DNA from: Punctularia strigosozonata HHB-11173 SS5
Taxonomy: Eukaryota; Basidiomycota; Agaricomycetes; Corticiales; Punctulariaceae
Reading direction: 5' to 3'
DNA length: 64,000 bases
NCBI RefSeq assembly: GCF_000264995.1
Contig: NW_006767435.1
Coordinates: forward strand, 1-64,000
In this document: positions 23,648-48,954 of the stretch, piece after piece
Numbering within the stretch: the first letter of the stretch is position 1
Layout: every line of letters begins with the position of its first letter
Translations under genes and position numbers: made by a program
The notes under the pieces: model-generated
Database searches by the model: none
The model's input: only the letters and a program-made list of their open reading frames with translations
Told to the model about the DNA's origin: nothing

Positions 23648-24140
23648 ACAGACATGGAGCATGAAAAACAGGAATTCGTAACCGGGCCTGAAGACTTCGC
23701 TTGTACGGTCTGCGATTGAAGTATCATTCGACGTCTTTGCTAATGGCTTCCTTGTACCTAGACGCGATCTGTCTGGTACGCGACGCTCATTCTTTGAAGA
23801 TCATACCGGTTTCCTGCGCTGAAAGCCACGGAGGATCACGACGCGAATGAGCACCGAATGTTTGGGCGTGAAGGTATGTGTATCATAGAGCCTGTGTTAC
23901 CACATATACAGGCAAACTGAGTTATAATATCACCCGCTAGCCTCATCACACTCGGAATGCTCATCGGCAAGCGACCGGGCGTTCTCCCGCAACGAACGTT
24001 TCTGGTGCACCCACGCCCTTCTTGTGGCTCGTGCATCTCATATGCCCGTCCCGATGCCTTGCACGAAACTTACTGTCCGCGCTTCACCACTGGGTAGAGC
24101 TCCGTGCCCGCACCAAGAAGGTAGCAGCGCACGATCGCAC
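23648..24140 (+). pseudogene. Decayed duplicate of the K+ channel gene, exons 2-5
   Basis: Nucleotide blocks match the intact channel at 27900-28440 in order, including intron sequence. They are GACATGGAGCATGAAAAACA, then CGACGTCTTTGCTAA, GGTACGCGACGCTCA, CCACGGAGGATCACGACGCG, GGCGTGAAGGTATGTG, TTTCTGGTGCACCC and CCCGCACCAAGAAGGTAGCA. Retained introns show duplication at the DNA level rather than retrocopying. Many substitutions and indels break the frame, and no pore-coding segment remains. Confidence 0.85.
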
Positions 24141-27700: not shown

Positions 27701-30467
27701 ATGACTGCGCTCCGGCCATTCGATTACCTCCGACCGTCAGGATGGCGCCAACGTATTCACGACCTCGCGACTGTCGCTCCCCTATTAGCCGCCGTTATCG
27801 CCCCACTGAGCGTCCTGCTCGATATACCCGCTTTGAGCGTGAGTGACTATCTCATATTCTTGTTTACATGTTGGCGAGCCCTGTACTGAAGTTGAGCCTG
27901 CAGCAAACATGGTACCTGAAGAACGGGGTCCCGCAACCAGACCCGAAGGCATCGCTCGTACTCTCGGCGATCGGATTGTCTTTCAACGTCTTTGCTAACA
28001 GCCTCCTTGTACGTTATCATCTGTCTATACCTGGTACGCGATGCTCACTCTGCGCAGATCATCCGCTTTTCGCTCGCAGAAAAGCCGTGGAGGATCGCGA
28101 CGCGAGTAAGCACCGCATGTTGGGGCGTCAAGGTATGTGTACCATGGCGTTCGTTCTGCTGCCCACCAGGATGGACTGGATTATCGCCAGGTCTCGATAT
28201 CTCTCGCCAATCTCATCACCTTCGGAATCGTTACCCGTAACAAACCGGCATTCTCCTATAACGAAGGGTTCTGGTGCGCGTACGTCATTTTCATCACCCG
28301 TTGAGCTCAGCATGCAGTACTGAACATGAGGCTAGAGTCGTCTCCTGCATATTGTCCGGCATCATATTCATCCTGCTCGCGCTGCACTGGTGCATAGAAC
28401 TGCGTACCCGCACCAAGAAGGTAGCAGTGCACGATCTATTTCTACTAGCCACCAACCATCCTCATATAAATATTGTCTTAGATTAATCAGAACGTTAGGG
28501 TCTCAGGCCGCCACTTCATGCTTCAGATCACGCTGTTCCTGTCCCTCATCGGGCTCGGCGCCCTTATATTCTCCCGGATCGTAGGTAGCGAGTGATTCTG
28601 TTCAGCGGGGCACCGATCTGATTCATCTGGACAACAGGAACACTGGACCTATCTTCAAGGCATCTATTTTATGACGGTGTGCTTCACGACGGTCGGGTTC
28701 GGAGATTTCTTTCCGACGACAACAGCGGGCCGCATTCTGCTTTTCCCGTTTACCCTCCTAGGTCTACTCCTCGTTATTACCCGTACCGTGTTAATGATAC
28801 TTAAGGCGATGTTGATCTGACAGGTATCGCTCTCCTTGGATCCATAATCGAAATGCTCGTGAGATTCTTTTCCTCGCGGAGCGCGGAACGCAAGGTTGGT
28901 TATCCCCATACATGATCCTTCACAGACGTCGACTTTCAACGTCTTCACTACAGGCTAAGTCACGCGCACTGTACGAGAAACGCAGACAGGAGGAAGAAGA
29001 CAAGAAGCAGACCCCGACTGACTTCGCGCGCGAGATCGAATTTTTGCAACGACTCAACGAGCGACAGGACGTCGTCGACCAGGCTAGCGAATTCGCGCTG
29101 AGCCTAGGAGGATTCTTGGTGTTCTGGTTCATCGGTGCCGTGATCTTCTGGGCCATCGAAGTCAGTTCCTCTGGCCCTCCGTTTCTTAGTGCGTTTGAAC
29201 ATTATTCGTCGCAGGGATGGACATACGGGATCAGCATGTACTTCTGCTATGTGTTCTTTCTGTCTATTGGCTTCGGAGACGTGGCACCCACCAGTCCCGG
29301 CGGTCGTGGTATGTAAGTCATTTGTTGCAGTTCGCTCACTCCTCAAATGTCCCATACGATGATTTAGTCGTGTTCATTATCTACTCGCTGCTCGCCGTTC
29401 CCATCATGGCGTCCTTCGCGGTTCAGGCAGTCACCTCGATCATGACCAAGTTCTCCAGCTATCGCCTTGACAAACGCAAAGCCGAGCTTGGTGTGGAGAC
29501 GATGAGCGCGCGTAACGAGGAACGAGTCATTGTGCGTACCCACTTCTCTCCTTGTCTTGTCCAGTTCTAGTTCAGCGGCTAAGGTATCTCTGTGTAGAGC
29601 CATGCGGAGTTCGTCGAGCGATTCGAGAAAAAGTGGGTACGGCGGAAACATGAACAGCGTGCAGAAGACGGAGTCCCGCATTTGAAGCGCGTCGCCGCCG
29701 CTGTCCGGGACGAGAAGCGGGTGGAGGATGCTGCTGCGCGCAATGAGGCCGAGCGCGTCGCGTTAGCGGGAGACTTGCCCGAGGACAAGGAGGAGCTAGC
29801 GGCGAGGGTGATCGATTTGGCGGTAGAGCTGGAGATGCACGCGCGACGGTTGCTGATCACGCATCTGCCCAACGGGAGCAAGGCTCAAGTTGTATTGAAG
29901 GCCGATCGAAATGTGCAACTACGGGTGAGGACCGAGTTGATTACTTCTTAACGTGCGCCTAGACTTACATGCTTGATAAAGGATGTCAGGGCCTTGAAGC
30001 GCGCCGCCCAAGGCAAGGCTTCTTCGTCAGTCGAAGAGAACGCCGCATACGGCGCGCAGAAGGCCGGTGCTCATCCTGCAAAGACTATGAGGGGTACCGA
30101 CGGGGACAGCGGCAGCCACGAGCGCGGATCGCCTCAAGGCAAGCTTACGCGTGCAGATAGCAATACGCCGCTCCACGAGGAAAGGGCGGAAGAAGCGGTG
30201 GAGGAGGCAGCGGAAAGCGACGCGGAGGACATGGACCCGGACCTAGTCGCGCGCCCGCTCGACGACGACGCGACGATGGAGGAGGTGCGGAGGTACCGCG
30301 AGAGCTTCGCCGCGCTGCTCGTGGCGGGGAGCCGGCTGAGGGGGCTGGAAGGGCATGCGAAGTACATGTTGGAGAGGAGGAAGGTGAAGGAGGAGATGTT
30401 GAACGAGGATATGGATCATGCCGGGAAGCCGCACAAGGCTGAAGGCGATGAGGATAATACACTCTGA
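27701..30467 (+). CDS. TOK-type two-pore outward-rectifier K+ channel
   Basis: Thirteen exons: 27701-27838, 27904-28008, 28058-28132, 28191-28279, 28318-28420, 28491-28580, 28638-28761, 28824-28894, 28954-29160, 29215-29308, 29368-29531, 29598-29924 and 29982-30467 (690 residues). Two selectivity filters are visible: TTVGFGDFFP in exon 7 and SIGFGDVAP in exon 10. Four membrane segments precede the first pore and two flank the second, giving the 8TM/2P layout specific to fungal TOK channels. These pass outward K+ current at the plasma membrane. The roughly 300-residue C-terminal tail is charged and coiled-coil-like, much longer than in yeast Tok1. A decayed partial copy lies at 23648-24140. 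Confidence 0.93.
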
Positions 30468-31011: not shown

Positions 31012-34000
31012 TTACTTGGTCGCAGCGACATCCTGCAGCCTCCCATCTACAACAGGGTGAATGACAGGGAGTGTCTTCTTCGCGTCAGCCTCCGCAGCAT
31101 TCACTTGCGCATCCTCCTTTTCTGCCAGCGCAGCCGGATCGTCAGAAACACTCAATGCGCGAAGGTTCATTCGCAAGTTGATGTTGACGGTCGAGCTCCG
31201 GAGGAGATTGGCCAGCCCACGAGCTCTATTTCGCTCGTATGAGTCCAGAAGTCCCATGTCCTCCTGGTCAGCCACGGCGAGTGCGGCGGCGAAGAGCAGA
31301 CTAGAGGCTATCCACCGAATACCGACCACGGCGTCTTGAACGGCATCCTTGGCTGCCTGCGTCGTGGACTGTACATAATCGCCTGCGCCCGACAGCAGAT
31401 CGCGACTTGGACTCAGGGACGGCAGAGACGGGCGCGAACGATTTGAACCGAACGACGATATGGACGACAGCGAAGGCGACTTGACGCTACCCTTGACGCT
31501 ACCCCACACGTTCGATATCTGCGCCGGGCTTGATGGGAGTGAGGGAATGTTAACGGGGCTTGTTGGAAGGGATGGCATCTTCAGTTTTCCGAGATAGTCC
31601 TGCACCAAAGGCCGTCAGGGACGATTCTGAGACCAATGCGGAGGCAATGAGAATGACCTTCAGAGGTACGTCCGGCAGCTGCAGCGAAAGCTGAGGCAGC
31701 TCGACTTTCAACTGGGTTTCGAACCCGCCGATGATATCGCGCGTCTTGGATCCGAGGTTCTCGAAGCGCGCATTGGGACCTTCGCTGACCTTTTTGTTGA
31801 GGAATTGAGCACCTGAAGTGAGGATGCCTTCAATGTTGGCTTTTTCGACAGGAAGTGCAAGTTGATTTCACCCACCCAAGAGGAACTTCCTGATCAGCGC
31901 ACTCTTCGATTGACCGTTCTCCGCAGGAATAGGTAGCGGTCTGCCCTTCAGAACATCATATCCGTCTCCTCCTTGGACCATATATTCTCCGCACATGATG
32001 AGATACTTCCGTTTGCTTGTACGCAGCACTTCTTCCTTGTCGACGAGTTCAGGTGTGCCATCTGCTCTGACCTTGTTCTCTGCCAGGAGCCATACACCGA
32101 GCACTCGCTGACCAGCAGGCTTTCTGCTGTCGAAGGTAACGCGAAGTCCGGATAGCGCGGGGAAACGCCTGAACAGCATCAGTCAGGTTCCAGCCCGAGG
32201 GTGGAACATCGACTACTCACCCCTCCTGGGCTGGCCAGCGCGATAGGCCCGACTCGAGCGCATCCCACAGCGTGTTCGCATCGAGCTCTACCACAACCGT
32301 GGGATCCAGGTACGGGAGGATGGTCAAGAGATCTCCGAACGTAAGTGGCCCTGAAGTGGTGTTCGATGTGTATCCCGGGTACTAGGTGATAGATAAATGC
32401 TCACCTGGCTCATATACTCTATCACCACGGAAATCGCCTGTGCACACCATCACAGCATCCGTTTTGCTGTAGCCGAGTTTGACAAGTGCTTCGTCGTAAG
32501 CTTGCCTGAGGCAGTCCGCGATCCAATTGCCGATAGCGGACTACATATCCCATGATTGAGAGCCGTAGACTCAAGCATTTTGCGAAAGTCACAAACCTCG
32601 TTCAAACGAATAAACGAGGAACGAACGTCTAGCTGTACCTCTGTGAAACATATCGGCTCTTTCATGGCGGTTTTGATGGTCGAAAGCTCGTTATCGACGA
32701 CCTCCTTCAGAGCTTCGTTCACCGCAGTACCTCCCCTTGTGACATGTCGGCGTCCTTGGACACAGTGAGAAACGATTGCTACGCTTGACAACCGCAACGC
32801 TCTGCTCACCCTTGATTTCGTGGATGATTTGCCTCCTTACGCTACCCGCAGGCGTCTCCTTGAGGGTGAGAACAACTTCACTGAGATCTTGGTAGTCCGT
32901 GCCGCTCTTTACGATCAATACATCACCCTGGTCGTCTGCGGCGTCCGGTTGCAACGTATTCAGGTCGAAGCCATCCCACCCCGAGACACCTTTGGATATC
33001 CAGTAGACATGATCGTGGCCACCCAAAAGCAAATCGACGCCGTGCTCGGAGGCGATGTTCTTAGCTGCTTGACCTGCCGGCGAAAGCGCGAAGAGCTCGC
33101 GGGCAAGTTTGATGTCCTTGAGATATCTCGGTGAGTACGTTATAGCGCAAGTCCTAGCTCGCAACTGACGTTCGGAATTCTGTACGACGATTAGCACTGG
33201 TCATGAGATAGCTGAATGATACTATATGGACGTACCGTGAATGAGTTAGCGCAATGATGATGTCACACTTGTACTGCCCAGCTGAGTCCCGAAGTTTGAC
33301 GGATAAGTCCCTTCCGACTTCAGCCATGTCCTTGTACTTGAAGTTCTCGGGCCATCCAGTGATCGTGGCGATCCATTCTCTGTCAAAGTTCGTATGAAGC
33401 ACCACGAAAGCTATCAATGAAGGTCCTTTACTTCTCGACCAAACCAATGAGGCCGATGCGGAGACCGGCTCGCTCGAGGACGTGAATTTCTTTCATAGGC
33501 TCCGGTACTTTCCCTGTGTTCGTATCGACAATATTGCTGAGAAGCCATGGCTAGAAGATGCTACTTGAGTTTAACGAACTAAGGGGGTAGGACGATCCTT
33601 ACGAAATTTGTATTGTTGATCAGCTCTTTGAGCCTAGGATAACCTAGCGAGAGAGCTCGTAAGCCTATGCAGTATTAGTACTAACCATTTCCCACCGAAG
33701 TCGAATTCGTGGTTGCCTGTTACAATATCAGTTTCTAATGTCATCTTATACGTCATCGGACCCACCAGCGACGCTGATATCGATGCTCAAACCATTGGCA
33801 ATCGCTGGCTGTTGCCTATGCGTCAGCATCATGTTTGAAAGGAGACGTTGTGAGCGTTGCGTACCATATGTTTCCCTCGAGTGACAGAGCTCTCGATCGA
33901 GGGAGAGAACATATCACCGGAAAAGACTATTAACCCGTTTCTGCCGTTGCCTTTGTCCTCCCACTTTGCGGTGATGTCGGTCAGAAGCGTCGCGAACTTG

Positions 34001-34986
34001 GTGACGTCGATGGTCTCTTCCTTGCCGTCGACGTGAATCTTCTGATCTGAAACCTGATAGACGTCGTTGAAGTGTGCAATGTTCAGAGTCGTTGTCGTTG
34101 GCTGATCAACAGGTTGTTTCGCCCGTTCTCGCCAGCGCTCAATCCCTGCCGCGTAAATCTCCCACGTCAAAGCTGTTTGTGAAGGGCAATTCTGAACGGT
34201 GATTCCTGAGCGAGGTAAGTTCATTGGTGGAGAAAGGATGTGATCGGTCATACCGAGCTCCTTCTCCAGCGATTTCGCGGACGGGTCGTCGTCGAACAGG
34301 ATCTGAGCCTAGGTTGAGTTGTATTCGGTATGCGCAATGTTTACCGCGTACCATGTCAGAGTGGTTGTATTTGCTCCATCCATGGATGCGCTTGAAATGC
34401 GCAGTTTTTGGCTCTGTTCAACGGATGCATTAACATGGGAAGGCAAGCTGCTGACTGTCTAGTTACCATCGACGACTTCGTCGTATCTGACCAACTTTAT
34501 GATCGACGTATCGGTGCCGGTCTTGGGATCCTTCGCTTTGTAGTAATACAAGGCTCGGTCGCATCTGCCAATCCGCATCAGCTGACAAAGTAAATCTACG
34601 AGTACACAAGGCTTACAAGGCCTTGCTGGTATTGCGAGAGACGATCGCTAGTGATGCACCATGCTCAAGGATGTCAGTGACGATTCGAGGAATGTCTTTG
34701 TTGAGGTGGATCTTGTTGGCGGGGTTGCTGGAAAGAATGCGCAGGTTAGGTGAAGAGTACGAGCAAAATAAGACGTTGAACGGACGATTTGTCTTCAAGG
34801 GTGAGGTCGTCGATGCGCTTGATGTTGTCCGCGAGTTTAGAAGCTGCCCTAGGGCCCTTCCCCCATACGCTCTGATCAAGTTTGCCGGTAAAGATGGTTC
34901 CGCTATGCGCCTCGATTCAGTCACCATTATTCATCATCAGATGCAAGGACCGACTCCGTATCCAATGCAACGAGCTTGGGATACAT
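31012..34986 (-). CDS. Fusion: MDP1-type HAD phosphatase + 5'-nucleotidase-type metallophosphoesterase
   Basis: The minus-strand gene begins MYPKLVALDTDGTIFTGK. Its first exons are 34955-34986, 34786-34902, 34617-34727, 34467-34564, 34352-34413, 34254-34302 and 33865-34205. Residues 1 to about 165 form a MDP1-type HAD domain: nucleophile motif DTDGT, motif II LAIVSRNTSK, and motif IV ILFDDD. Exon 7 runs without interruption from the HAD end (GITVQNCPSQTALTWEIY) into the metallophosphatase start (LNIAHFNDVYQV), so the fusion is seen directly. Later motifs are FSGDMFSPS, NHEFDFG, ALTHSR and LLGGHDHVYW. The 5'-nucleotidase C-terminal domain and a Ser/Pro-rich tail ending at 31012 follow. Total is about 1,000 residues; exons after the seventh were read but not all fixed to the base. 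Family enzymes dephosphorylate nucleotides or nucleotide sugars. No signal peptide is present. Confidence 0.85.
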
Positions 34987-35571
34987 GGTAGAGCGCTGTA
35001 GGTATGGGTTCGATGCTCCAGTCCGGTGGGAGCATAGCTCCACGTTGAGTCGAGTTGATGAAGATATCATGCGCGTCTACGAGAACGCTTCTCAGCGCGT
35101 CCCCAGCTTCCTTCAACGTGACTTATCCCCTTGCAGATCCTGTTGCTATCAAAGCCGACACTTGGGGTGAACCCCCGGCGAAGTTCTGTCACCGCTGGTT
35201 GCCGCTGTCAAACGTGAGTATGTATGCGCAGCAGCAAGAAAACGAGGCACTTTACCCATATTGTGACATGGATGCTTCTGAACCCAAATCCTCGCCGATA
35301 ATTGTGATGAAACAACTGATCTCCCCACCCTGATTGTCGCTGATCATCGCATATCCGATTTGTACCCTACAGTAGCATCGCCTGAGCCTTTTGGGGCAAT
35401 CGATTTCCGAACGAATGGTCATGGTTGGCATGCGCGTGTTACGCGAGGTCGAGGCTCTCTTTGTGTCCTCTGCTACGTCGCGTTTGCCATGGTGTGCAGA
35501 GTTACACCGGATATGCCGAATCGATAGATTAGCGGGGGAGCGAGGGGACAAAGCAATAGCAACTTTGCCCT
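34987..35571. other. Intergenic region between two HAD-fusion genes
   Basis: About 585 bases holding the promoter of the HAD-nucleotidase gene and the 3' end of the HAD-kinase gene, both on the minus strand. Frames on either strand are short and unrecognised. Confidence 0.5.
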
Positions 35572-37451
35572 CCTAGCTCCGCACGAACCACCAATCCAAA
35601 TCTTTCAGGAACTCCCGCCCTTCCTTTTCCGTAATAGCCCCCCTCTTCATGTTCGCTTCGTATTCCGTCTGCACCATCCACGCAATCCAATAACGGCGCT
35701 GTGCGGGGTATCGTCACGCATGGTGAGGGTACGGAGAGGGTGGTGCCGAACTCACGAATTCCTCAGGCGTGTATTTTCGGCCGGCTTCACTAGCTTGCCA
35801 AACCAAAACGTCGTCGCCACGGACGTATCTGCTCCCGTCGAAGGTCATTCGAACGGCGATCCCCCTAAACTAAAATCAAAAACAGCCCACCCACGCATAA
35901 AGAACTTTATACCAATCGAGGAGATGCGCCTTCACAGGCTGATCATTGCTCATCGTGAACTGTACGTTCGCCAGGTGGGCATCGCTGCGAGAATCGTAAG
36001 ACACAAAGTTGTTGCATTAAGAATGGTAGCGACGCACCGGTGCTCGATGCCGTGCTTCTTGACGTGATACTCGATTTCGTCTACGGCCAGGTGAAAAGCG
36101 GTCTTGACAAACCTTTGGAAGGTGACGCTGAACGGATGCTTCCGGTACAGGGGCGTCTTCCAGAGGGGCGTTCCTCCGATCTTGACCATGGAAAACCACC
36201 CCGACATGTTCGCCGGTTTGGGCGCTTTGAGCTGCCCGACCAAGTCAAGGTTCCGTAGTTCCAAGGCGATCATGAGGAGGTATTGATCGTCGTTGCTGCT
36301 TCCGGGCTTGAATGGGCGGCCGTCTTTGATGACGTTGTAGATCTCGAGAAATCGGTGGCGTTGTTCCTTTGACCAGAACTTCATCACTTTGATAACTGCT
36401 CCCGGATCGCCCGCGGCGTTGTAAGCCTTGGCAAATTTGCCTTGACCCAGTAGCTCGCCAAGTGCGGGTTGGCCATCTAATATCAACGATCAGTGACGGG
36501 ATTGGACGTGCATGATTGAGCAGTCCGTACAGTACGGGGTGTCGTAGCGACTGTCATCCTGAGATGGATTGTCTAGTCCGAGTGCTTGCTGGTATATGCC
36601 CCAGCTGACGCCGCTACGTTTGCTAACGAGCTGAAGTCGTACGCCTATTCGTATCATTCGTCAACGTAGGAGGTGACGGCGGTAATGGGTAGACCGACCG
36701 AGTCTTGTGTGGACGTCTTTACTCGACGAATCGCTGGAGAAATAGACCTAAAGATATATCATTAGTGTTGCGATTTTGATATCCTATATCGGAGCGCACC
36801 ATTTCGTTGTAATTAGCTTGGCTCCATTCTCGTATCTGGCCGAAAGTTTTGACAATATCGCCTGGGAGATGCGCAGGTTAGATTGAAGTCTGACAATACC
36901 AAGGCGCAATAAACCCGCCTACGCCGACTTCGTCATACAACACGAAGGATATTATAGGCTTCCTATCGCGGTTTGCATCTTCAGCCTTGTAGAGGTACAG
37001 AGCTCTGTCGCATCTACGACACTAGTGAGGAACCGCGCAAAATATAACGTTCACCAAAGGCGTACAGCTCTTTACTGGAATTCCGAGACACGATGGCGAG
37101 CTTGATGCCACGCTTGACTATATCATGTATGATGTTTGGCACGTCCGGGAAAAGGCTGATGTAGTTTGAATGTTGACTGCGGATCAAATTTTAGGTATTA
37201 TCAGCACCAGTGAGCCTTCCTTGTACGATGGGTACGTACGATCTATCCCGGATCGACCACGCGTCGACGCGTTCCAAGTTATCCTGGATTTTTGGGGCCG
37301 CATTCGGACCGCTCCCAAACTTGTGCTTATCCAAAGTGCCGGACCACAAAGTGTCGCTAATAAAACACTTCTAAGCATCGATCGCATCGAAAGACAGAAG
37401 AGATGGGCATGCAACTTACTCGACCTCGAATGCAACCACCTTGATAGTCAT
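35572..37451 (-). CDS. Fusion: degenerate MDP1-type HAD module + protein-kinase-like domain
   Basis: Eleven exons: 37420-37451, 37240-37356, 37066-37176, 36919-37013, 36800-36861, 36699-36747, 36552-36644, 36038-36476, 35913-35984, 35757-35864 and 35572-35698, summing to 1305 bases (434 residues). The first six have exactly the lengths 32/117/111/95/62/49 seen in the three paralogues at 37967, 41555 and 44196. The HAD nucleophile motif reads EVDDT (first Asp replaced by Glu) and motif IV reads VYFSSD instead of ILFDDD, so catalysis is unlikely. The C-terminal part has a glycine loop LGQGKFAKAYN, a candidate lysine in AVIKVM, the catalytic loop HRDAHLANVQFT and a DWG in place of DFG, so the kinase-like part keeps its key residues. 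Intron 4 appears to be GC-AG. The donor after exon 7 is the least certain junction. Confidence 0.8.
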
Positions 37452-37966
37452 GTGTTCCTCCTAGTGCAAGATGCGTCTTCAGATATGTTCGACTGAAGCG
37501 AGCTCCGCCCAATGTCGACGGCATTACATCAGTTCATATACCATCGCCAAGTCGCGGGTACGTTCAGGCTGCCCCGTGTGACGCGTCGCGTCGCGCGAGA
37601 AAGGGGCAGGAAACAAAGCGGGGGCCATTATGTAAGAATGGCACAGCCCTTCAGGAAGGTTTTGCTTCCGACGACATCCGTGAGGAAGCGTCCAAGACAC
37701 AAGGGGATAAAGTCGTGCTTCCTCGGAGCCAGATATCCTCCGCTACTTCATGCCCATCACCGAGGACAACATGCATATGGTGCGTGTTGGGCTCCACAGC
37801 CATGTCGAGCTGACTAGAACCATTGGACTCAGCGCCTCCGCTACCACGGGATCCCACTAGTATTCAATCTCGTTCCGAATTCCGAGGCGCCGGGACGAGA
37901 CTCACAGTAATAGTTGAACTTGTAAGTGGTTTACACACTTCGTTGCCGTTTTCATATCCCTGCGCG
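37452..37966. promoter_or_regulatory. Divergent intergenic region, HAD-kinase / HAD paralogue A
   Basis: About 515 bases separate two divergent start codons, so both promoters lie here. It does not resemble the upstream regions of paralogues B and C as far as I can see. No clear TATA box or repeat was found. Confidence 0.5.
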
Positions 37967-39634
37967 ATGTACCCAAAGCTCGTCGCAATAGACACGGAGT
38001 CGGTTTCCAAATCCCACAAAGAGTTCATGGTATGCATTCTGACTCAGACGTACATATGTAGCTGGACCATATTCTGGGGCTGGCTCGATGCCAAGACGTG
38101 GGGTAAAGGGCGCAATGCCAGGTCCCAGGTTGAAGATAACATCGCGAAAGTCAATGAGCGAGAAATTCATGATCGGTCGTAGGTCACGTCAAGTCCTCAG
38201 CCTTATCGAGATGGTGTTGAATTTCAATCGCAGAAATCATAGCCTGAAGTGCGTGATGTATTCGGACATTCCCCGCATCATCCAGGATATCAAGAAGCAC
38301 GGCGCTAAACTCGCCATCGTCTCTCGTAACACGGACAAGGCCATGTAAGTTGACGAAGTCCGTGATGTGATTTCTCCTCTCAGATTACTGTTAGGTGCGA
38401 CCGTGCTCTATGGTACTTTCACGTTCCTGACGAAAATGGGCATGAGCGTCCTCTCATTGACCTCGTCGACTTCGACGAAGTCTACAATTGTAAGTATCCG
38501 AGTAGCCTGTGTCATTGTGGCTTCTCATGTCCAGAACGTAGTGGATAAGGTACATCATTTCAGCAAGATCAAAGGCTGGACTCAGTACCACTACTCGGAC
38601 ATGGTAATCATATAATCTTAGTGCGTGACGCGATTCTGACCTTGCGTATGAAAGATTCTATATGATGACAAGGCTATCAACAATACCGTCGAGATGATGC
38701 TTGGTACGCTCCTATTGCCAGTCTTGTTCCTGCTAACTTATTGCATGTCTAGGAGTTACGTTTCAAGTCTCGCGCGACCAGAAGGGCTTGACATGGAAAA
38801 ACTATCAAGACGGGCTCGCGACGTGGCGCCGTAACAAAGCGATCCATAGTCCGTGGCACGGGCTAGACGTCCACCTGTATCCCAAGCGGAAGCTCATAGG
38901 ATACTCGGGGATGGACCTCGACACTATCAAGCTCCTCGAGGCTGGAGGACGACGGCAGGATCGTAAGGAAGCTGCTCGATGGGGCTACGCGATGTACGTC
39001 GCGGACAACCCAGCAATGTAAGCCAACTCGTGTTTGACGCTGTGGTTCTGACTCGCGACTACAGTGCAAAGTACTTTTCCGACTGGATCAAGAAGACTGC
39101 ATTCGGTCCTTCAGCACAGACCATCGTCTGCGCTATATACGCACGCGATGGCGAGATCTTCGAGCGCATGAACAAGGTCGCGTACTCCATCCTCATTCAT
39201 CGTATTTGTGTATCATCTCAACGTTCTTGCAGATCTGGGTTCCGGATAAGCAGTCTTTGAAGATAAATGTGACGAAGGCCAGCGCCTTCCAAATCGCTTG
39301 GAGCCAGGAAGACAGAGACCGTCAGGTGGCAGCCTGGGGCGTTCAAAAGCCGTACATCCTGTTCGCGAGGCATCCGAACATGAATGACCACAAGGGCCTC
39401 AAGTTCCCCGTTCCTAATAACAAGCGATGGAACGAGATGGTCGTGTACGGTCAGGTTCAGGAGAACCTAATTCTCACCGTGCGCATGTCGGACAAGGAAC
39501 TGGATCATGCGATCAAGAACATAGACACGTCCCACATTCGTTACGGGAAGAAATTTAGAGCATGGAATATCACCGTGCCGGAGGAGACGCGACGAGGTTT
39601 CGAAAAGCACGGCGAAAAGTTCCCATTGCCTTGA
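37967..39634 (+). CDS. MDP1-type HAD phosphatase fused to an ART-like/unassigned domain (paralogue A)
   Basis: Nine exons: 37967-37998, 38062-38178, 38234-38344, 38395-38489, 38542-38603, 38655-38703, 38753-39017, 39065-39176 and 39233-39634, summing to 1245 bases (414 residues). The N-terminal 155 residues are a MDP1-type HAD domain: DTDWTIFWG, LAIVSRNTDKAM, ILYDDK. The HAD ends in exon 7 at GVTFQVSRDQKGLTW. The same exon then enters the second domain: WRRNKAIHSPW, KRKLIGYSGMDLDTIKLLE, WGYAMYVADNPA, AKYFSDWIKKTAFG, QTIVCAIYARDG and, near the end, RWNEMVVYGQVQEN. The pattern GY.G...LL..G, G+A.YVADDP..A.YF and a late NE motif is reminiscent of ADP-ribosyltransferase folds. I offer that as inference only. 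No signal peptide is present. Confidence 0.82.
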
Positions 39635-39935
39635 GATATCTGCCGTCGCTCTCCGTTTGTTCTTACCACAGCAGATAAAGTTCGTGTTCTTGGCTGTATC
39701 CTGTACTATGCTTAGCGTATGCGACACAATGGACCAAGCCCTACCCCTGATTGATGATACATTCCGCAATGCGCTTGACGACGGCGTGTTTCCTCACAGA
39801 TCTTTCCCGTCCAACCTTGCTCAACAGACTGAGACCGGCAAGGGAAGCGAATCCACCACGGATAAGTGACGATCAAAGGCACTGGGGACCGCTTTTTTAT
39901 ATTAATTAAGCAAGTCATCGTGGGATGTTTAGGGG
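39635..39935. other. Convergent 3' intergenic region
   Basis: About 300 bases between the stop of paralogue A (+) and the stop of the nicotinamide riboside kinase gene (-). Nothing is recognised. Confidence 0.5.
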
Positions 39936-40999
39936 CTACTTCGCCGCCGAAACCTCCACCACTCGTTTCATCACCGTATTCACCATGTCGGTCATCGAGG
40001 TGCTCGTGCTCTCGAACAGCATCAAACCTTCCACCTTGCCACTCACGCCGCCATTCACAACGTCTTCATTCTCGAACAGGTGTTTATGGGCGCGGATATA
40101 CGCCGGCCAGACGATCTTCTCCCAGTAGTGAGGAGGGTCGGTCCATGTCTCGCCCTCTGAGTTCGAGTTCAATGATCCGAATAAGGGATCATCAAAGTCT
40201 TGCACGCTCACCGGGTGTGTAGTACGAGCGAGCTTCGCGTCTGGCCCTCGCTATTTCTTCAGGAACGCGGATAACGGCGCGGACGTCGAGATCAGACACG
40301 ATGCGCTATAACGTCGACGATAATCAGGTAATGAATGCAATAAAACAACTGTCGCGCTCGCCTTGTCCCAATAGAGCAGGAAACCGTCAATGATAGCCCA
40401 GACGAGCTGCTCCCCGTGCTTCTCCAAATGTTCGGCGGCCAACTTTTCGCTTTGAGCCTTCCAATCTGCGATGACCTTTTCATCTACGGCCACGTTCGCC
40501 GTCTGGTTAAAGCTGTCGAAGGATTGGTGATCGGCGGGGAGTGTACCGGTCTTCTTCAGGTCGGCGACGAACGCTGCCATGCGATCCCACTCAATAGCGC
40601 CCTCCGGGTCGTCCCAGTTTTCAAATCCATATTCAGGGTCGATTGGGAGTTTCTCAGCAGGCTGAAATACGTGAAGATATGGATGAGCAGCGAGCCAAAC
40701 CGCGTCTCGAGTGACGACGGACCGGCACAAAGTCCTGTTGGGGAGACGGGTGGAGTATTCTATGAGCCAAGCGCAAAGCAACGGTGAAGCCAGTCGGAAC
40801 GCACGTCCTGGTGGACAGTGAAGCTATTTGGCAAACAGTTTCTGAGGTGCTTTGCCAAGGTCGTCTTCCCAGAAGATGTGGCCCCACTGCACAGCCGGCG
40901 TGAGCAAGCGATGTGGCCCGACTCCCGCGTCAACGTCGCTACTCACCCAACGCCGATGGTTATGATCCGTGTCGGTTTCTCACTGGTGCTCGTCGACAT
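39936..40999 (-). CDS. NRK1: Nicotinamide riboside kinase
   Basis: Six exons: 40947-40999, 40805-40886, 40723-40734 (12 bases), 40362-40661, 40212-40305 and 39936-40156, summing to 762 bases (253 residues). The spliced N-terminus gives IITIGVGGATSSGKTTLAKH with the Walker A motif split across intron 1, then HQDDFVPPAEKLPIDPEYGF and ENWDDPEGAIEWDRM. VWAIIDGFLLYWDK, SDLDVRAVIRVPEEIARARR, YYTPEGETWTDPPHYWEKIV and WPAYIRAHKHLFE follow. All blocks match eukaryotic NRK, which phosphorylates nicotinamide riboside to NMN for NAD+ salvage. The 12-base microexon encodes DFVP and restores the conserved DDFVP motif exactly. The intron after WDK uses a GC donor. The gene lies on the opposite strand inside the HAD-fusion array. 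Confidence 0.88.
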
Positions 41000-41554
41000 C
41001 GCTAGCAGTGTCCGGCGAGAAATCGATAATGCGAATGAAGATCGTAATCAGGAGAGTATCGGGAGGGCGCCCGGCGCTGCAGCTTGCGCACCGCGTTACG
41101 TCGCCGCACAGGTTCTTCATTGCGTCTCAAAGCTCGTGTTCTTGCAGCCACGGTTTGACATGCATGGGTAGTTGAACTCTATATCGCGCATCTCCGTCGG
41201 AGATATACGCGCTCCGTCTTAGTGACTCAGATTGACACGAGCTTGTACAACAGGATGGAAGCACGGTGAGCATAATGCGGGCGATTTGGGGGCATGCATG
41301 TTCCGTGTACATCTCGTTCCCAGCGCTTATATGTCTGACATAGAAGCGAGCATCGACTGTAATGTGCATGGGGTAAACGGTAGCGCGGTCCTTGACCGAT
41401 CCGCCGATATCGTATACCATGATGATATCAGCACCTTGCGGCAACCGAATTCGGGACAATACAAAATCTTCTTGCCAATGATGCGAAATGCGTTTTCTGA
41501 CGCGACAGACTTCGCTTCATCCCCTCTGTGCTTGTCTAACCGCAGGTTTGCGTC
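41000..41554. promoter_or_regulatory. Upstream region of paralogue B, shared with paralogue C
   Basis: The part from about 41195 to 41370 resembles the part from about 43785 to 43960 in front of paralogue C: TCCGTCGGAGATATACGC against TCCGTCGGGGATATGCAC, then AACAGGATGGAAGC against AACAGGCTGGAAGC, and TATGTCTGACATAGAAGC against TATGTCTGACACGGAAGC. The duplicated unit therefore includes 5' flanking DNA. The region also holds the promoter of the divergent NRK gene near 41000. Confidence 0.7.
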
Positions 41555-43219
41555 ATGTATCCAAAGCTCGTTGCGTTGGACACCGAGTATGTCTCTCCAC
41601 AGGATATCTCCGCGGCTGCTGAAAAACCTCTATAGTTGGACCATCTTCTGGGGCTGGCTCAACGCCAATCAGTGGGGCAAGGGACCTGGCGCCTCAGGGA
41701 CAATCGAGGACAACATCATCAAGGTCAACTACTGGGAAATACAGGATAGAAGGTTAGCCTTCGATGACTGTTCGCTTGCGGCGCGCCGAGGATTGCTGAT
41801 ACCGTCGAGTATAGTAACTGTAATCTCAAATGCGGCATGTACGCAGATATCCCGCGCATCATCAAGGACATCAAGAAGAACGGCGCGAAGCTTGCGATTG
41901 TCTCTCGAAACACGAGCAAGGCACTGTGAGTAGACGATCGCGCTAGTTGGCGTCACCGGTCCAATGCTCATGCTACAAACAGGTGTGACCGCGCATTATG
42001 GCACTGGCAAGTAGAGGATACGCACGGCAACATGAAGTCCATTATCGACCTCGTCGACTTCGACGAAGTATACAATTGTGAGCAACGATGCACCGTTTGT
42101 CTTCTCCTGTGGTTCTAATCGGAGATGAAAAGCGGACAAAGTCAATCACTTCCAGAAGATTAAAGGCTGGACGAAATTCGACTATTCTGACATGGTCGCG
42201 TTGTTTTTGTGTTAAGCTTATCTATTCCTTGACACGAAACACAGATTCTGTATGACGACGAAGCCATCAACAATCCGGTTGAAATGATGCTCGGCATGTC
42301 CTCTGCCTCGTTTATGCCTAGTCGGAAGACTGATATCTCGTTCAGGTGTGACATTCCAAGTGTCGAGGGACCAAAAGGGTCTGACTTGGGATAACTATCA
42401 GGAGGGGTTGGCGACGTGGCGCCGCAACAAAAGCATACATAGTCCTTGGAAGGGGCTTGACCTCGGGAATTACCCGAAGCGGAAGTTCATTGGGTACTCG
42501 GGTATGGACCTCGATACCATCAAACTGCTCGAGGCAGGGGGTCGGCGGCACGACCGAAAGGAAGCGGCGCGATGGGGATTCGCGATGTACGTCGCAGATG
42601 ATCCAGCTGTGTAAGCTCCGGTGTTTCGCGTGCTCTCTCATGTGCTCATTCTCGGTTCAACCACCAGCGCGCAGTACTTCTCGGAGTGGATCAAGCGCAC
42701 GGCCTTCGGGCCAGCAGCACAGACGATTGTATGTGCTATATATGCAAGAGACGGTGATATCTTTGACCGCATGAACAAGGTCATAGCTATTGTCTTCATC
42801 TCTGCAATGGAAGCAGCTGACGTTGAAGATAGGTCTGGATGCCAGATTGGGTGGACCGCTGGACTAATGTTCAATCGAACGAGTTCGTTCTCGGATGGAG
42901 TCAAGAAGACCGTGACCGTCTCATCGCGGGTTGGGGCGTGCAGAAGCCATATGTACTCTTCGCACGGCATCCGAACATGGGAGCCGGTTTCCCTGTCCCT
43001 AACGGCCAGCGGTTCAACGAGATGGTCATCTATCCGCAGGTACAGGAGAACTTGATCGTCATCCAACGAATGTCGGACCAGGAGCTGGCTCAGGCGGTCC
43101 GATTCCCGAGCCAACGCTACCCCCATCTTCACTACGAACAGCAATTTCGAGCTTGGAACATCACTGTGCCGCAGGAAGCTCGCGATGACTTCGCCAGGCA
43201 TGGCGAGCGCTTCATGTGA
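41555..43219 (+). CDS. MDP1-type HAD phosphatase fused to an ART-like/unassigned domain (paralogue B)
   Basis: Nine exons: 41555-41586, 41636-41752, 41815-41925, 41983-42077, 42133-42194, 42245-42293, 42346-42610, 42668-42779 and 42833-43219, summing to 1230 bases (409 residues). HAD motifs are intact: DTDWTIFWG, LAIVSRNTSKAL, ILYDDE. The C-terminal domain carries WRRNKSIHSPW, KRKFIGYSGMDLDTIKLLE, WGFAMYVADDPAV, AQYFSEWIKRTAFG, WSQEDRDRLIAGWGVQKPYV, LFARHPNMG and RFNEMVIYPQVQEN. The first eight exons have the same lengths as in A and C. The intron after exon 6 starts GC rather than GT at a site where A and C use GT. Sequence is closer to paralogue C than to A, fitting a recent local duplication. 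No signal peptide; probably cytosolic. Confidence 0.85.
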
Positions 43220-44195
43220 GATACTTGTAGGGCGACTACATGCAGGCTTTTCCTATAACATGCCCTTAACATTCACTGTCTCCGCGTGCGCTGGCTATGG
43301 ATATATGAGATTGTATCATCGACACTATGCATCATTGAGGGTGGCTAGCTGACCCACATGAAGATATACTGTAGGTTTTCGACCGTAATTTCGTCCCCTG
43401 CACCTACCTGCGAACCAAACCTATTCGCCCATTTGTTCCCTGGCCCCTTCCGATTTTTTTGCGCAATTAATGACCGTGGGAGACTCATAGTCTGACCGTC
43501 GAAGTGTTTGAACTGATCGAGGATCACTTCGCGAACTTCCCACGGGCCCGAACTTGGAGGGTGTCTCCAGGGGCCAAGGATGTACTATTTTAACACGTCC
43601 ATTGTCGTTCTACTACGTCGTCCACTTCGCCGCTTCGACCGATACCGCGTCGAAGATCCAATTAGGCTACACCTCTACGCTGCAGGCGGGAATAACCATG
43701 GCCTTGACTTCGAAGCACGCTGAGAAACATGCCACTTTTCGAACGTTCATGAATCGTGGACGTGTGCTCCATGATAAGACGTTGTGAATTTCCGTCGGGG
43801 ATATGCACACTCGGTCTTTGTGGCTAGGCTCAAGTGAGCATGATAACAGGCTGGAAGCTTGGCGAATGGTGAGCCGAAATGGATTAGGGCCATGCATGCT
43901 CCTTGTGTCTCTGCTTCCCAGGGTTTGTATGTCTGACACGGAAGCATGCACAGCCATTTAAATATGGACCTTTATAGCAGCGTTCGGCATCGGTCTTGAA
44001 TATTGGCCGCGATCCGCAAGGGGTAACCAAACGCACCGAAGACTACAGAATACCACGGGACTATCAACATACTGCGTCAAATGGATGGACAAAGTACCGC
44101 TCCGACGCGGTACAAATTGTGCTCGCCGGACGTAGCTGGTTCAACATTCCGTTCCAACATCGTCCCCATCGACTTCTCGACTGTGGACTTGCGCC
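43220..44195. other. Intergenic region between paralogues B and C
   Basis: About 980 bases. The right half repeats the upstream region of paralogue B (see 41000-41554). A 60-codon minus-strand frame near 43345-43527 and a 77-codon plus frame near 43554-43787 read partly protein-like but match nothing I know. Confidence 0.5.
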
Positions 44196-45867
44196 ATGTA
44201 TCCAAAGCTCGTTGCTCTCGACACTGAGTGGGTCCAAATCTTTGTGGGTATATACGTCTACTGACTTGTTTCAATAGTTGGACCATCTTCTGGGGTTGGC
44301 TCAGGTCGAACGAATGGGGGAAGGGACCCTGCGCCTCAAGGACAATCGAAGACAACATAATCAAGGTCAACTACTGGGAGATCCAGGACAAAACGTTGGT
44401 GATCGTTCACTCCAGCTTTGTAGGAGAGCGAAACGCTGATGACTCCGGCGAGCATAGTAACCCTAATCACAAGTGCGGCATGTTCGAGGACATTCCGCGT
44501 ATCATCAAGGACATCAAGAAGAATGGCGCGAAGCTTGCCATTGTTTCTCGCAACACGAGTAAAGCATTGTGAGTCGACGATTCCCAGGCCGCCAACATGC
44601 GCTCATGCACGGGTAATTATAGGTGCGATCGCGCGTTATGGCATTGGCAAGTGGAGGACGAGCACGGCAAGATGAAATCAATTATCGACCTCGTTGAATT
44701 CGACGAAGTTTACAACTGTGAGTATTGGTTGTGCACCCCGCCCCGCCGCGTAACTCATGAAGGTGAAAAGCGGACAAGATAAACCACTTCCGAAAGATCA
44801 AGGGCTGGACGAACTTCGAGTACTCAGATATGGTTGGGTCGTTCTCGGTTGTTGTAATGTCACCGCTTTGACGGATCAACAGATTCTGTTCGACGATGAG
44901 GCTTTCAACAACACGGTTGAGATGATGCTCGGTAAGTATGCTCGTTCGATCACACCTCTTTCAAGTGCTTGATCCCCTTTCAGGCGTTACTTTCCAGGTT
45001 TCAAGGGATTCGAAGGGCCTTACATGGGACAACTACCAAGCTGGACTAGCAATGTGGCGCCGCAACAAGAGTATCCATAGCCCATGGCATGGACTTGATC
45101 TTGCGAAGTACCCCAAGAGGAAGCTCCTTGGATACTCCGGAATGGATCTTGATACTATAAGGTTACTTGAGAAGGGAGGGAGACGACACGACCGAAAGGA
45201 AGCTGCGCGATGGGGATTCGCGGTGTATGTCGCAGATGACCCGGCGGTGTGAGTACCTGCCTTCCTCGACGATCAGTTACGTGCTCATTTGGGCCTACAC
45301 CAGCGCAGAGTATTTCTCTGAGTGGATCAAACGCACTGCTTTCGGGGCAGCAGCTCAGACTATCGTCTGTGCCATATATGCCAGAGACGGAGATGTCTGG
45401 GATCGCATGAACAAGGTCATCGTTGATCCGATGTCCATCTGGGAACGGACAACTAACGTCAATCACAGATCTGGATGCCAGACTGGCAGGATCGTTGGAC
45501 AAACGTCCAGGCCAATGAATTCGACCTCGGCTGGAGCCAAGAAGACCGCGACCGTATTATTGCGGGTTGGGGCGTACAAAAGCCATACGTCCTCTTCGCG
45601 CGGCACCCGAACATGGGGACGAATGCCGGTCTCCGGTTTCCCATTCCCGGCAACCAGCGGTTCAACGAGCTGGTCATCTACCCGCAGGTGCAGGAGAACT
45701 TGATTGTCATTCAACAGATGTCCAATCAGGAGCTCCGTGATGCGATCAGGAACCAGAGCCAGCGCTACCCGCGTCTTCACTACGAACAGCTGTTCCGCTC
45801 CTGGAACATCACGGTACCAAGGGAAGCTCGCGAGGATTTTGCGCGGCACGGCGAGCGTTTCGCGTGA
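44196..45867 (+). CDS. MDP1-type HAD phosphatase fused to an ART-like/unassigned domain (paralogue C)
   Basis: Nine exons: 44196-44227, 44278-44394, 44458-44568, 44623-44717, 44771-44832, 44883-44931, 44984-45248, 45304-45415 and 45469-45867, summing to 1242 bases (413 residues). HAD motifs DTDWTIFWG, LAIVSRNTSKAL and ILFDDE are intact. The second domain shows LGYSGMDLDTIRLLEKGGRR, WGFAVYVADDPAV, AEYFSEWIKRTAFG, IWMPDWQDRW, LGWSQEDRDRIIAGWGVQ, RFNELVIYPQVQEN and a conserved tail FRSWNITVPREAREDFARHG. Conservation between B and C is as strong in the second domain as in the HAD part, so the second domain appears to be under selection. MDP1 is a Mg2+-dependent phosphatase of the HAD superfamily; its substrate here is unknown. 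Confidence 0.85.
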
Positions 45868-46558: not shown

Positions 46559-48954
46559 ATGCGCTTGGCTACGACGTTTATCGCCCTCCCTCTTCTCTTT
46601 GCTGGCGTGATGGTTGGCGCAGCGTCACCCGCTTCGCTGTCAAGCTCTCTCACCTTTCTGTACCAGAATGACTTGGACTGTGCGAAACTCTCTCCCATCT
46701 CCGATTTGGGGACTAATCGTGATATAGGGCCAACAGCGCCGGACCATTCAGGAGCGATCTTACTCGAACCTCGGAACAACCGTGCAGCAGTGTCGAGCTG
46801 CGAGGCTCTCGGAGAGACCCTACTGGTGCCCAACGGAACTTTCTTCAAGAGTGACGTGAATTCTTTACTTTCATATCTTAACTTTGAAGGCCTCTTTCCC
46901 ACCAGCCAAGAGTTCTGGATCGCGACGAAGTCGGGAGGAGGTTCTTGCCAGACCATCTCGAAGGGAGCCGACATTCGAGATACGTCATGCGAACGCGTCC
47001 TCCCTGCGCTTTGCTCTCAGAGTGCGCCTTTCCGTCCATCAGGGGATCAGGTACTGTCCACTCGCCGGCGTTCTCGTGCATCTTCGCTCATCTACTCTCG
47101 TCACGGGTCCGCAGGACAAGGATCCGAGGTTCGAGTTGACCATCTCCGCTCAAGACCTAACGGTGACAGGGTATGTGTCAGTCAGTCGTACCGGCTGTCT
47201 GACTATTAATCTATCTTCAGATATCGCGATCATCTTTCGTTCCGCTTTCTTGGCCTGCCCTACGGCAATCCACCGGAACGCTTCACATACTCCACACTCT
47301 TCTCCGGTGCTCAGAAAGTCTTCAATGCCACAAACTTCGGTTCTCAATGCGTTCAGACCGGAGGTGGAGGAAGCGAGGATTGCCTTTTCTTGAACATTTT
47401 CACGCCCTTCGTTCCCGGCCCGGGAACACCCAAATCGGCCCTGAAACCGGTCATGTTTCACATCCACGGCGGCTCCTTCACGAGCGGAAGCGCCAACGAC
47501 GCGACGTTCGATGGCGGCAACCTGGCCTCGCGTGGCGACGTAGTGGTGGTTGACATTAACTATCGATTGTCGACCCTGGGTTTCCTTGCGCTGGAAGACG
47601 GGGTTACCAACGGCAACTTCGGTATCGCCGATATGACTGTGGCCCTCGCTTGGGTCCAGAAGTACATAACCTCGTTTGGAGGCGACCCAGATCGCGTCAC
47701 GATCTTCGGACAGTCTGCTGGCGCCGCCGCGGTGAGAGCGTTGCTGGCCAGTCCGGAGGCCATCGGCAACTTCTCTGCCGCGATACCGATGAGCAACCTG
47801 GCGGGAGAGAACTTTGCGACCTCATTCTCTCTGTACTTCACCATCTCTCAGCTGCAACCCGTTGCTGTGGATCCGATTCTCACAGAAACAGGATGTAACA
47901 GGACAGATCTTGCCGACGTGCTCGCTTGTCTCCGTTCGGTCGATGCCGAGACTCTGGTCAACCTGCCGGACGTCGCGAGGTACCTTTTCTCCTCTGGCCG
48001 CGCGAGCATCTCATTCTGACCTGTGACACAGATTCATCGTCATCGATGGCAAGTTCGTCACCTCAGAGCAACTTCCTGTCGACGGGTCGAGCCCGGTCGC
48101 CCACGTACCTGTGGTCATGGGCTTCATGCGCGACGACGGAGCAGCGTTCATCGGCTTTCCCCCAAACTCTGATGTCACTACCAACATCGCGGGCGTACTG
48201 TGCGCTATCATCACATATCTATACCACGCATCCTTGCTGACGAGTCGTGGTGCAGTTCAAGCCCATCGGCGGCGGACGTTGAGGCATCCGGCCTGTTTCC
48301 GACCCCTGCCGGACCCAACTCCACGCTGGACGTGTTCAACGTGACCGCACGCATCACGACCGACGTCGAGTTCCGATGCCTGGATCAAGCCGCCGCGATC
48401 TCGGCCCTGAACCACAGCGTCTTCCCCGACATCTGGTTCTACCAGTTCAACAAGTCGTACCAGACGCCCGGGTTCGATCCGAACGCGCCGGTGTGCGACG
48501 CCCCGATCGACGCCGCCCATCCGCACGGCGACCCTTCGCAGGAGTATTTCAAGTACGTTTTTTTTTATTATCGCCCACCCCGCTTTGTCGTCCCTTCGTC
48601 GCTCATCACCGCCCCCGCAGATGCCACTCCGGCGAGCTGTTCTTCGTGTGGGGCAACCTGGGCCAGTTCCAGCTCCCGTTCCGAGACGAGAACGACCTGC
48701 TGTTCTCGCAGCTCGCGTCGGACACCTGGACGTCCTTCGCGCGGACGCACGATCCCAATCCGAGCCACGCGTTCCTGACCGCGCGCGGGTACACCGGCAC
48801 GCTTGCCCTCGTCAAAGAGGGCGGGATCTGGGAACCGCTTGGCGGGCAGAACGAGAGGGCTTTGAGACTGCTGGATATGCCGCTGCGCATGTCGACGTTC
48901 GAGGAGGTGGCGCAGTGCGATTTCCTGGGGTTGCCGTTCGACACTTTCGGTTGA
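46559..48954 (+). CDS. Secreted type-B carboxylesterase/lipase
   Basis: Six exons: 46559-47050, 47115-47170, 47221-47979, 48032-48199, 48256-48552 and 48621-48954, summing to 2106 bases (701 residues). A signal peptide (FIALPLLFAGVMVGAAS) opens the protein. A cysteine-containing N-terminal region of about 160 residues precedes the alpha/beta-hydrolase core. Core motifs are FRFLGLPYGNPPERF, SEDCLFLNIFTP, the oxyanion HIHGGSF, DINYRLSTLGFL, and the nucleophile elbow GQSAGAAA. Several N-glycosylation sites are visible. The N-terminal extension (SSCEALGETLLVPNGTFF, then LLSYLNFEG) is shared by a group of large basidiomycete esterases rather than by classical lipases. The likely role is extracellular ester hydrolysis; the substrate cannot be told from sequence. 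Confidence 0.9.

Follow-up and report, generated by a model that had tools for sequence, protein, structure and literature searches.

The first 64 kb of contig C3 (NW_006767435.1; 2,824,611 bases) of Punctularia strigosozonata HHB-11173 SS5, whose genome spans 33.6 Mb, constitute the stretch of DNA analyzed here, referred to below as the window. Spliced gene models within it reveal five genes at 31012-45867 whose products all begin with an HAD domain of the magnesium-dependent phosphatase 1 (MDP1) type, followed by one of three partners: a predicted ADP-ribosyltransferase (ART) fold domain in genes A, B and C, a kinase-like domain in gene D, and a metallophosphoesterase of the 5'-nucleotidase type in gene E. 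The order from left to right is E (-), D (-), A (+), a nicotinamide riboside kinase 1-like (NRK1) gene (-), B (+) and C (+). The common N-terminus, which was claimed in the original prediction, is confirmed by the spliced models, by Acid_PPase scores and by intron positions, and the description of a single HAD module attached to three different partners is likewise borne out, the arrangement recurring in other fungi.

Table 1. Features of the HAD fusion array and their coordinates in the window.
Feature	Position	Strand	Description
Gene E	31012..34986	-	HAD + metallophosphoesterase/5'-nucleotidase; 982 aa, 20 exons, spliced model
Gene E, HAD part	~34986-34110	-	
Gene E, metallophosphoesterase/5'-nucleotidase part	~34089-31012	-	
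Gene D	35573..37451	-	HAD without nucleophile Asp + kinase-like domain; 439 aa, 11 exons, spliced model
Gene D, HAD part	37451-36531	-	
Gene D, kinase-like part	36476-35573	-	
Gene A	37967..39634	+	HAD + predicted ART-fold domain (~38884-39634); 414 aa, spliced model
NRK1 gene	39936..40999	-	Nicotinamide riboside kinase 1-like; 253 aa read by eye; PDB 2p0e match
Gene B	41555..43219	+	HAD + predicted ART-fold domain (~42477-43219); 409 aa, spliced model
Stretch upstream of gene C	43788..43945	+	70% identical over 166 columns to the stretch upstream of gene B
Gene C	44196..45867	+	HAD + predicted ART-fold domain (~45115-45867); 413 aa, spliced model

Genes A, B and C share a common layout of nine exons each, with one GC-AG intron in gene B. 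The fusions had been described as lying in uninterrupted exons, which is correct for A, B, C and E, each joined within one exon, and incorrect for D, in which a 54-nt intron lies between the HAD linker and the kinase part. Genes A and B match the deposited proteins P0003 and P0001 of this strain with 100% identity, which rules out gene-model error as the source of their fusions; for the fusion types generally, such error is ruled out by uninterrupted relatives on contigs too short for introns, namely P0139 (949 aa, 3193 nt), P0144 (1024 aa, 3327 nt), P0148 (967 aa, 3311 nt) and P0109 (442 aa, 1398 nt). If these short contigs are transcripts, as we infer, the uninterrupted HAD-kinase and HAD-nucleotidase proteins that they encode speak for fused transcripts in the relatives. 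The deposited models conceal part of this picture. The entry for gene E (P0151) agrees with the spliced model over residues 143-982 only; that for gene D carries a 10-residue insert from its different intron choice, having a 33-nt intron where our fourth intron requires a GC donor; no entry of its own was recovered for gene C, the best match being 85%; and a sixth HAD-ART gene 2.2 Mb from the array (C3:2253991-2255546, L041) has exons that match through to the C-terminus, with a deposited protein (P0048) that stops at 304 aa. Our model of gene E is itself probably 10 nt off at the exon edge near 33690, where the deposited protein and its relatives read FDFGYPRL.

The HAD module matches Acid_PPase (PF12689, cut-off 27 bits) in all three array genes scanned, with 100 bits for C (1.8e-28), 72.9 for D (3.8e-20) and 62.7 for E, and with 103.7 bits in P0001, the database copy of B; scores against the MDP-1 equivalog TIGR01685 are 33.8 (C) and 25.6 bits (D), below its cut-off of 53.75. 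A first fold comparison agrees in placing the module in the HAD fold, all of its listed matches being HADs. The HAD exons measure 32/117/111/95/62/49 in A-C, deviating in the fourth exon of D (89) and in the fourth (98) and sixth (55) of E, and all six HAD introns occupy the identical column and phase in the five genes. Four of the six sit exactly where the stand-alone MDP1 gene of the fungus has introns, which marks the module as a duplicated gene of the host. In gene D the HAD reads FEVDDTLW, and the nucleophile Asp of DxDxT is absent. The same is true of the kinase type at large, in an alignment of gene D with 26 of its 31 matches (D being counted twice, also as P0106): the nucleophile is missing in 25 of 26 rows, with Glu in 22, Ala, Gly and Arg in one each, and Asp in the remaining one. 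Mean identity between kinase-type relatives is 46% for this pseudo-HAD versus 60% for the kinase part, and the simplest reading would be a non-catalytic role that retains the fold.

The kinase part retains its glycine-rich loop, Lys, Glu, HxDxHxxN and Asp in every row that has a residue there (Lys221 and Glu264 in 27 of 27 rows; Asp339, His341, Asn344 and Asp361 in all 26 rows with the residue). Gene D scores 13.4 bits against Pkinase, under the cut-off of 31.7; 14 of its 26 relatives match at E <=0.1 (best 1e-5), and a profile of the HAD-kinase family finds CK2 in PDB with E 8.8e-5. Gene E exceeds the cut-offs for both Metallophos (38.1 versus 21.5 bits) and 5_nucleotid_C (72.6 versus 23.6 bits). 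It has an unfused 5'-nucleotidase paralogue at C8:430212-432307, and tblastn with E, C and MDP1 as queries found no HAD in 5 kb at that locus. None of the five proteins has a hydrophobic N-terminus, and gene E encodes a single hydrophobic stretch at residues 878-896. The NRK1 gene, which is divergent from B, recovers two distinct sequences from PDB, both NRK1 (best 2p0e, E 1e-15, with the P-loop aligned), and scores 31.1 bits against AAA_18 (cut-off 29.4). A second NRK1 copy at C3:2804317-2805244, some 20 kb short of the opposite end of this contig, shares 40-69% identity with it in matched exon pieces and 33-39% in longer tblastn pieces.

The C-terminal domain of A-C had been left unassigned; it is indeed a distinct third partner, and a confident structure model gives it the ART fold. 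The prediction was made for P0001 (gene B), whose C-terminal domain was modelled confidently, and the 50 listed structural matches of this type of domain are ART folds, with exotoxin A and cholix at the head of the list and 10-15% identity in the top 25. An active-site Tyr, in a register taken from a weak profile match, is kept in 87 of 87 rows with the residue, and a Glu in 89 of 89, an assignment that we make from strand order and from the general arrangement of the fold. At the position of the ART His, whose register comes from a weak profile match to exotoxin A, the 90 rows have Ser (67), Ala (12), Thr (5), Val (5) or a gap (1), so that none of the 89 rows with a residue has His. Profile searches give fainter signals: Exotox-A_cataly reaches 12.5 bits (cut-off 25.9) in one of 16 members, the other 15 lacking a match, and the ART-family profile recovers 12 sequences from PDB at E 0.17-1.7 (nine exotoxin A, two pertussis toxin S3 and one exotoxin A-like), an earlier profile having placed an unrelated inhibitor (E 0.78) above exotoxin (0.96). 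Against DUF5910 (PF19287), C scores 18.3 bits (cut-off 23.2) and 31 of 66 members reach E <=0.1 (best 1.4e-5); one relative, P0097, carries it as a precomputed assignment. A search for DUF5910 in the fungus's own genome gave no match, as it gave no match anywhere at all, and a single scan of bacteria and archaea for relatives of the ART domain yielded 14 pattern matches with none confirmed. An ordinary PARP gene is also present in this fungus, away from the array at C3:847872-848288 (-).

Protein searches returned 105, 31 and 17 proteins, and the named relatives are presumably all Agaricomycetes, the exceptions being the ascomycete Lasiosphaeria and an entry labelled willow, which is probably a contamination. 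The Lasiosphaeria ovina protein P0100 is the sole HAD-ART protein of an ascomycete recognised among the named matches, and it may reflect either lateral transfer or an old origin. We grouped the proteins onto contigs by equal nucleotide size; 24 of 89 sizes hold at least two types, one of which, the 1398-nt group, comprises two different short contigs and was dropped, and species names agree in the other 23, Punctularia included. At least two fusion types thus share a contig in 22 cases besides Punctularia's, counting one Phlebia contig (14221 nt) whose chimeric model has a kinase tail only; all three types occur on five of the 23, and 18 contigs carry at least two HAD-ART genes. Locus tags lie close together in many contigs, such as D9757_006404, 006406, 006409 and 006410 in Collybiopsis and E1B28_005022 to 005030 in Marasmius oreades.

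The history of the fusions can be read from the HAD module. In a tree of 144 of 156 rows, the 12 with short HADs having been dropped, the partner label changes four times, the minimum possible being three and the mean of shuffled labels 43.5; the HADs therefore group by partner across fungi, and the module swapping that had been suggested finds no reflection here. The five HADs are not all each other's closest relatives, a finding that had been named in advance as refuting the idea: those of D and E are nearest to HADs that belong, in other fungi, to HAD-kinase and HAD-nucleotidase proteins. Distances in the HAD part match those in the ART part (Mantel r 0.80 for 95 rows, with none of 500 permutations as high). 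With MDP1 as outgroup the kinase types diverge first and the nucleotidase types are nested within the ART types. A more careful tree of 76 rows, which comprises 31 ART types (28 randomly drawn), 23 of 27 kinase types, 19 nucleotidase types, two triple fusions and MDP1, and excludes the long-branched P0100, P0088, P0044, P0128, P0134 and P0131, supports the kinase type with 100/98 and the nucleotidase type plus triple fusions with 100/99; with all rows, the SH-aLRT value of the kinase clade is only 88 in the partner-label tree and 75 in the MDP1-outgroup tree.

The triple fusions, P0063 (584 aa) and P0067 (Paxillus ammoniavirescens), have the order HAD-ART-nucleotidase and branch close to the base of the nucleotidase clade, where P0067 is sister to the HAD-nucleotidase protein P0143 of another Paxillus. 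Their ART parts are sisters (99) and differ in the GYSG stretch that the rest of the family conserves; both proteins end inside the nucleotidase, and no complete triple protein occurs among the sequences. The HAD-nucleotidase type likely arose when a HAD-ART protein became fused with a neighbouring nucleotidase and then lost the ART domain, and the sole rearrangement observed is a triple fusion that seems to have dropped its middle domain. Within the array, B and C are 86% identical, and the likeness of their upstream stretches (Table 1) shows that tandem duplication carried promoter DNA along. Third codon positions of A, B and C differ far more (0.42-0.54) than the first two (0.09-0.21), which shows that selection maintains all three genes.

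We tentatively interpret the array as a set of intracellular, NAD-linked enzymes that the HAD module holds together, a reading to which we give a probability of about 40%. NRK1 converts nicotinamide riboside to NMN, 5'-nucleotidases can convert NMN to nicotinamide riboside, and ART-fold enzymes use NAD+; on these grounds we favour an NAD-linked pathway. In this reading the MDP1 gene of the fungus was duplicated and one copy came to form the N-terminal half of several fusion enzymes, whose HAD-ART, HAD-kinase and HAD-5'-nucleotidase types stay together on one chromosomal stretch in many Agaricomycetes, here with NRK1 among them. Acting inside the cell, the ART-fold domain would use or sense NAD+, the nucleotidase would degrade nucleotide products, and NRK1 would feed nicotinamide riboside back into the NAD pool, with the HAD as a shared docking or ligand-binding part that may bring the enzymes together or pass on phosphorylated intermediates, surviving in the kinase type as a pseudo-enzyme. 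Sequence or model shows directly that the fusions exist and share an origin, that the third partner has the ART fold, that the types co-occur repeatedly and that the kinase type has lost its HAD nucleophile. It is rather doubtful that the set amounts to a hitherto undescribed fungal NAD-linked machine in which a duplicated housekeeping phosphatase, partly a pseudo-enzyme, serves as a protein tag that assembles the kinase, the nucleotidase and the ART-fold enzyme, and which mushrooms would use in immunity, in recognising self or in signalling through nucleotides.

Several observations weigh against the NAD-linked reading. The activity of every family member is predicted only, and the replacement of the His in all 89 ART rows with a residue suggests that these domains may use NAD+ in an altered way or not at all. 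The TM-scores that Foldseek gives by query length are moderate (0.33-0.42 in the first 23 matches), one GNAT acetyltransferase stands at rank 34, and sequence comparison by itself makes a weak case that does not establish the ART assignment; an hhalign comparison with the fungus's own PARP gave 0.8% probability, not above two controls (1.2% and 0.9%). The motif I Asp is missing in nine of 82 ART-type rows with the residue and HAD motif IV is changed in several nucleotidase-type rows, and these changes argue against a single common HAD chemistry. Linkage of NRK1 to the array is known from this genome only, and in Mycena and Favolaschia co-presence on one long contig does not imply closeness.

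The main rival, which we consider unlikely, is a conflict or self-recognition system in which HAD-ART proteins would be intracellular effectors that stop fungal cells, viruses or grazers from growing by acting on NAD+ or a host protein, controlled or complemented by the kinase and the nucleotidase, with the HAD as a regulatory or sensor part. Toxins are the closest ART folds, tandem copies occur, as on the 18 contigs noted above, and B and C were duplicated together with their upstream DNA; however, the fusions are old and stable rather than rapidly exchanged, the ART His position is not conserved, and a secretion or trafficking N-terminus is absent, the HAD itself forming the start of the proteins (N-terminal 19-residue hydropathy peaks at 0.38-0.66). 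Nor was an immunity gene recognised, NRK1 being the only gene recognised between the HAD genes, where small unknown genes were not searched for. Quite unlikely, in our estimation, are ordinary neofunctionalised duplicates, that is, three unrelated fusions with no common pathway that have simply remained neighbours since tandem duplication. Common origin and tandem layout would explain their closeness within a genome, and HAD motifs have decayed in part of the family; the co-occurrence of types on 22 further contigs and the triple fusions point instead to a functional link. Highly improbable is the original proposal of polymorphic effectors that swap their C-terminal modules: it would account for three C-termini on a constant N-terminus and for the rearranged architecture of P0063 and P0067, yet ongoing swapping is contradicted by HAD trees sorted by partner and by the agreement of HAD and ART distances.

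If the NAD-linked reading is true, about 100 mushroom proteins labelled hypothetical or acid phosphatase would be HAD-ART fusions with an unrecognised ART fold, and the recurring cluster would represent a rare eukaryotic case of a single module on three unrelated enzymes. The pseudo-HAD retained on the kinase predicts a common binding role. The probable route to the HAD-nucleotidase type can be read from the triple fusions that survive.

Elsewhere in the window, three CCCTAA units and, after them, copies of a 30-bp repeat lie near the contig start (939-1335), a possibly subtelomeric position, and no longer telomere array occurs in the 64 kb. A 64-nt direct repeat (24073-24136 and 28373-28436; 81% identical, 4.3 kb apart) is perhaps part of two related genes. 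The array is flanked on the left by an open reading frame with an ion-channel domain (Ion_trans_2; 28816-29316, +) and on the right by one for a carboxylesterase (47210-48019, +).

In the open-access literature we found no paper on DUF5910, on PF12689, or on magnesium-dependent phosphatase together with basidiomycetes, and no title or abstract on a fungal array of one HAD with three enzymes. The C-terminal domain of a mushroom toxin is reported not to resemble ART effector domains (PMC13324453).

Comparison with known systems places each component. With the catalytic domains of the exotoxin A, cholix and diphtheria type, the array domain has in common the ART fold and a Tyr aligned by a weak profile match; it differs in its low identity (10-15%), in having Ser, Ala, Thr or Val at the His position, and in being joined to an HAD in proteins without delivery domains. 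To the PARP family its match is weaker than to the exotoxin A type, the own-PARP profile comparison being not significant. Unlike MDP-1 (PF12689/TIGR01685), the array HADs form the N-terminal half of larger proteins, score under the equivalog cut-off in C and D, and lack the nucleophile in D. Gene D shares the glycine-rich loop, Lys, Glu, HxDxHxxN and Asp with eukaryotic-like and atypical kinases (Pkinase, APH, ABC1, YrbL) and differs in its sub-threshold Pkinase score and its fusion to a pseudo-HAD, whereas gene E has both domains of the 5'-nucleotidase family over their cut-offs, with an HAD where the hydrophobic N-terminus stands and its hydrophobic stretch at 878-896. Bacterial polymorphic toxin systems (PMC3482391) likewise combine a constant N-terminus, variable C-termini, tandem genes and ART-fold C-termini; the array differs in trees without C-terminal exchange and in having neither a secretion module nor a recognised immunity gene. 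Every domain belongs to a known superfamily; the combination, a recurring fungal cluster in which three enzymes carry the same HAD, did not turn up in the open-access literature searched.

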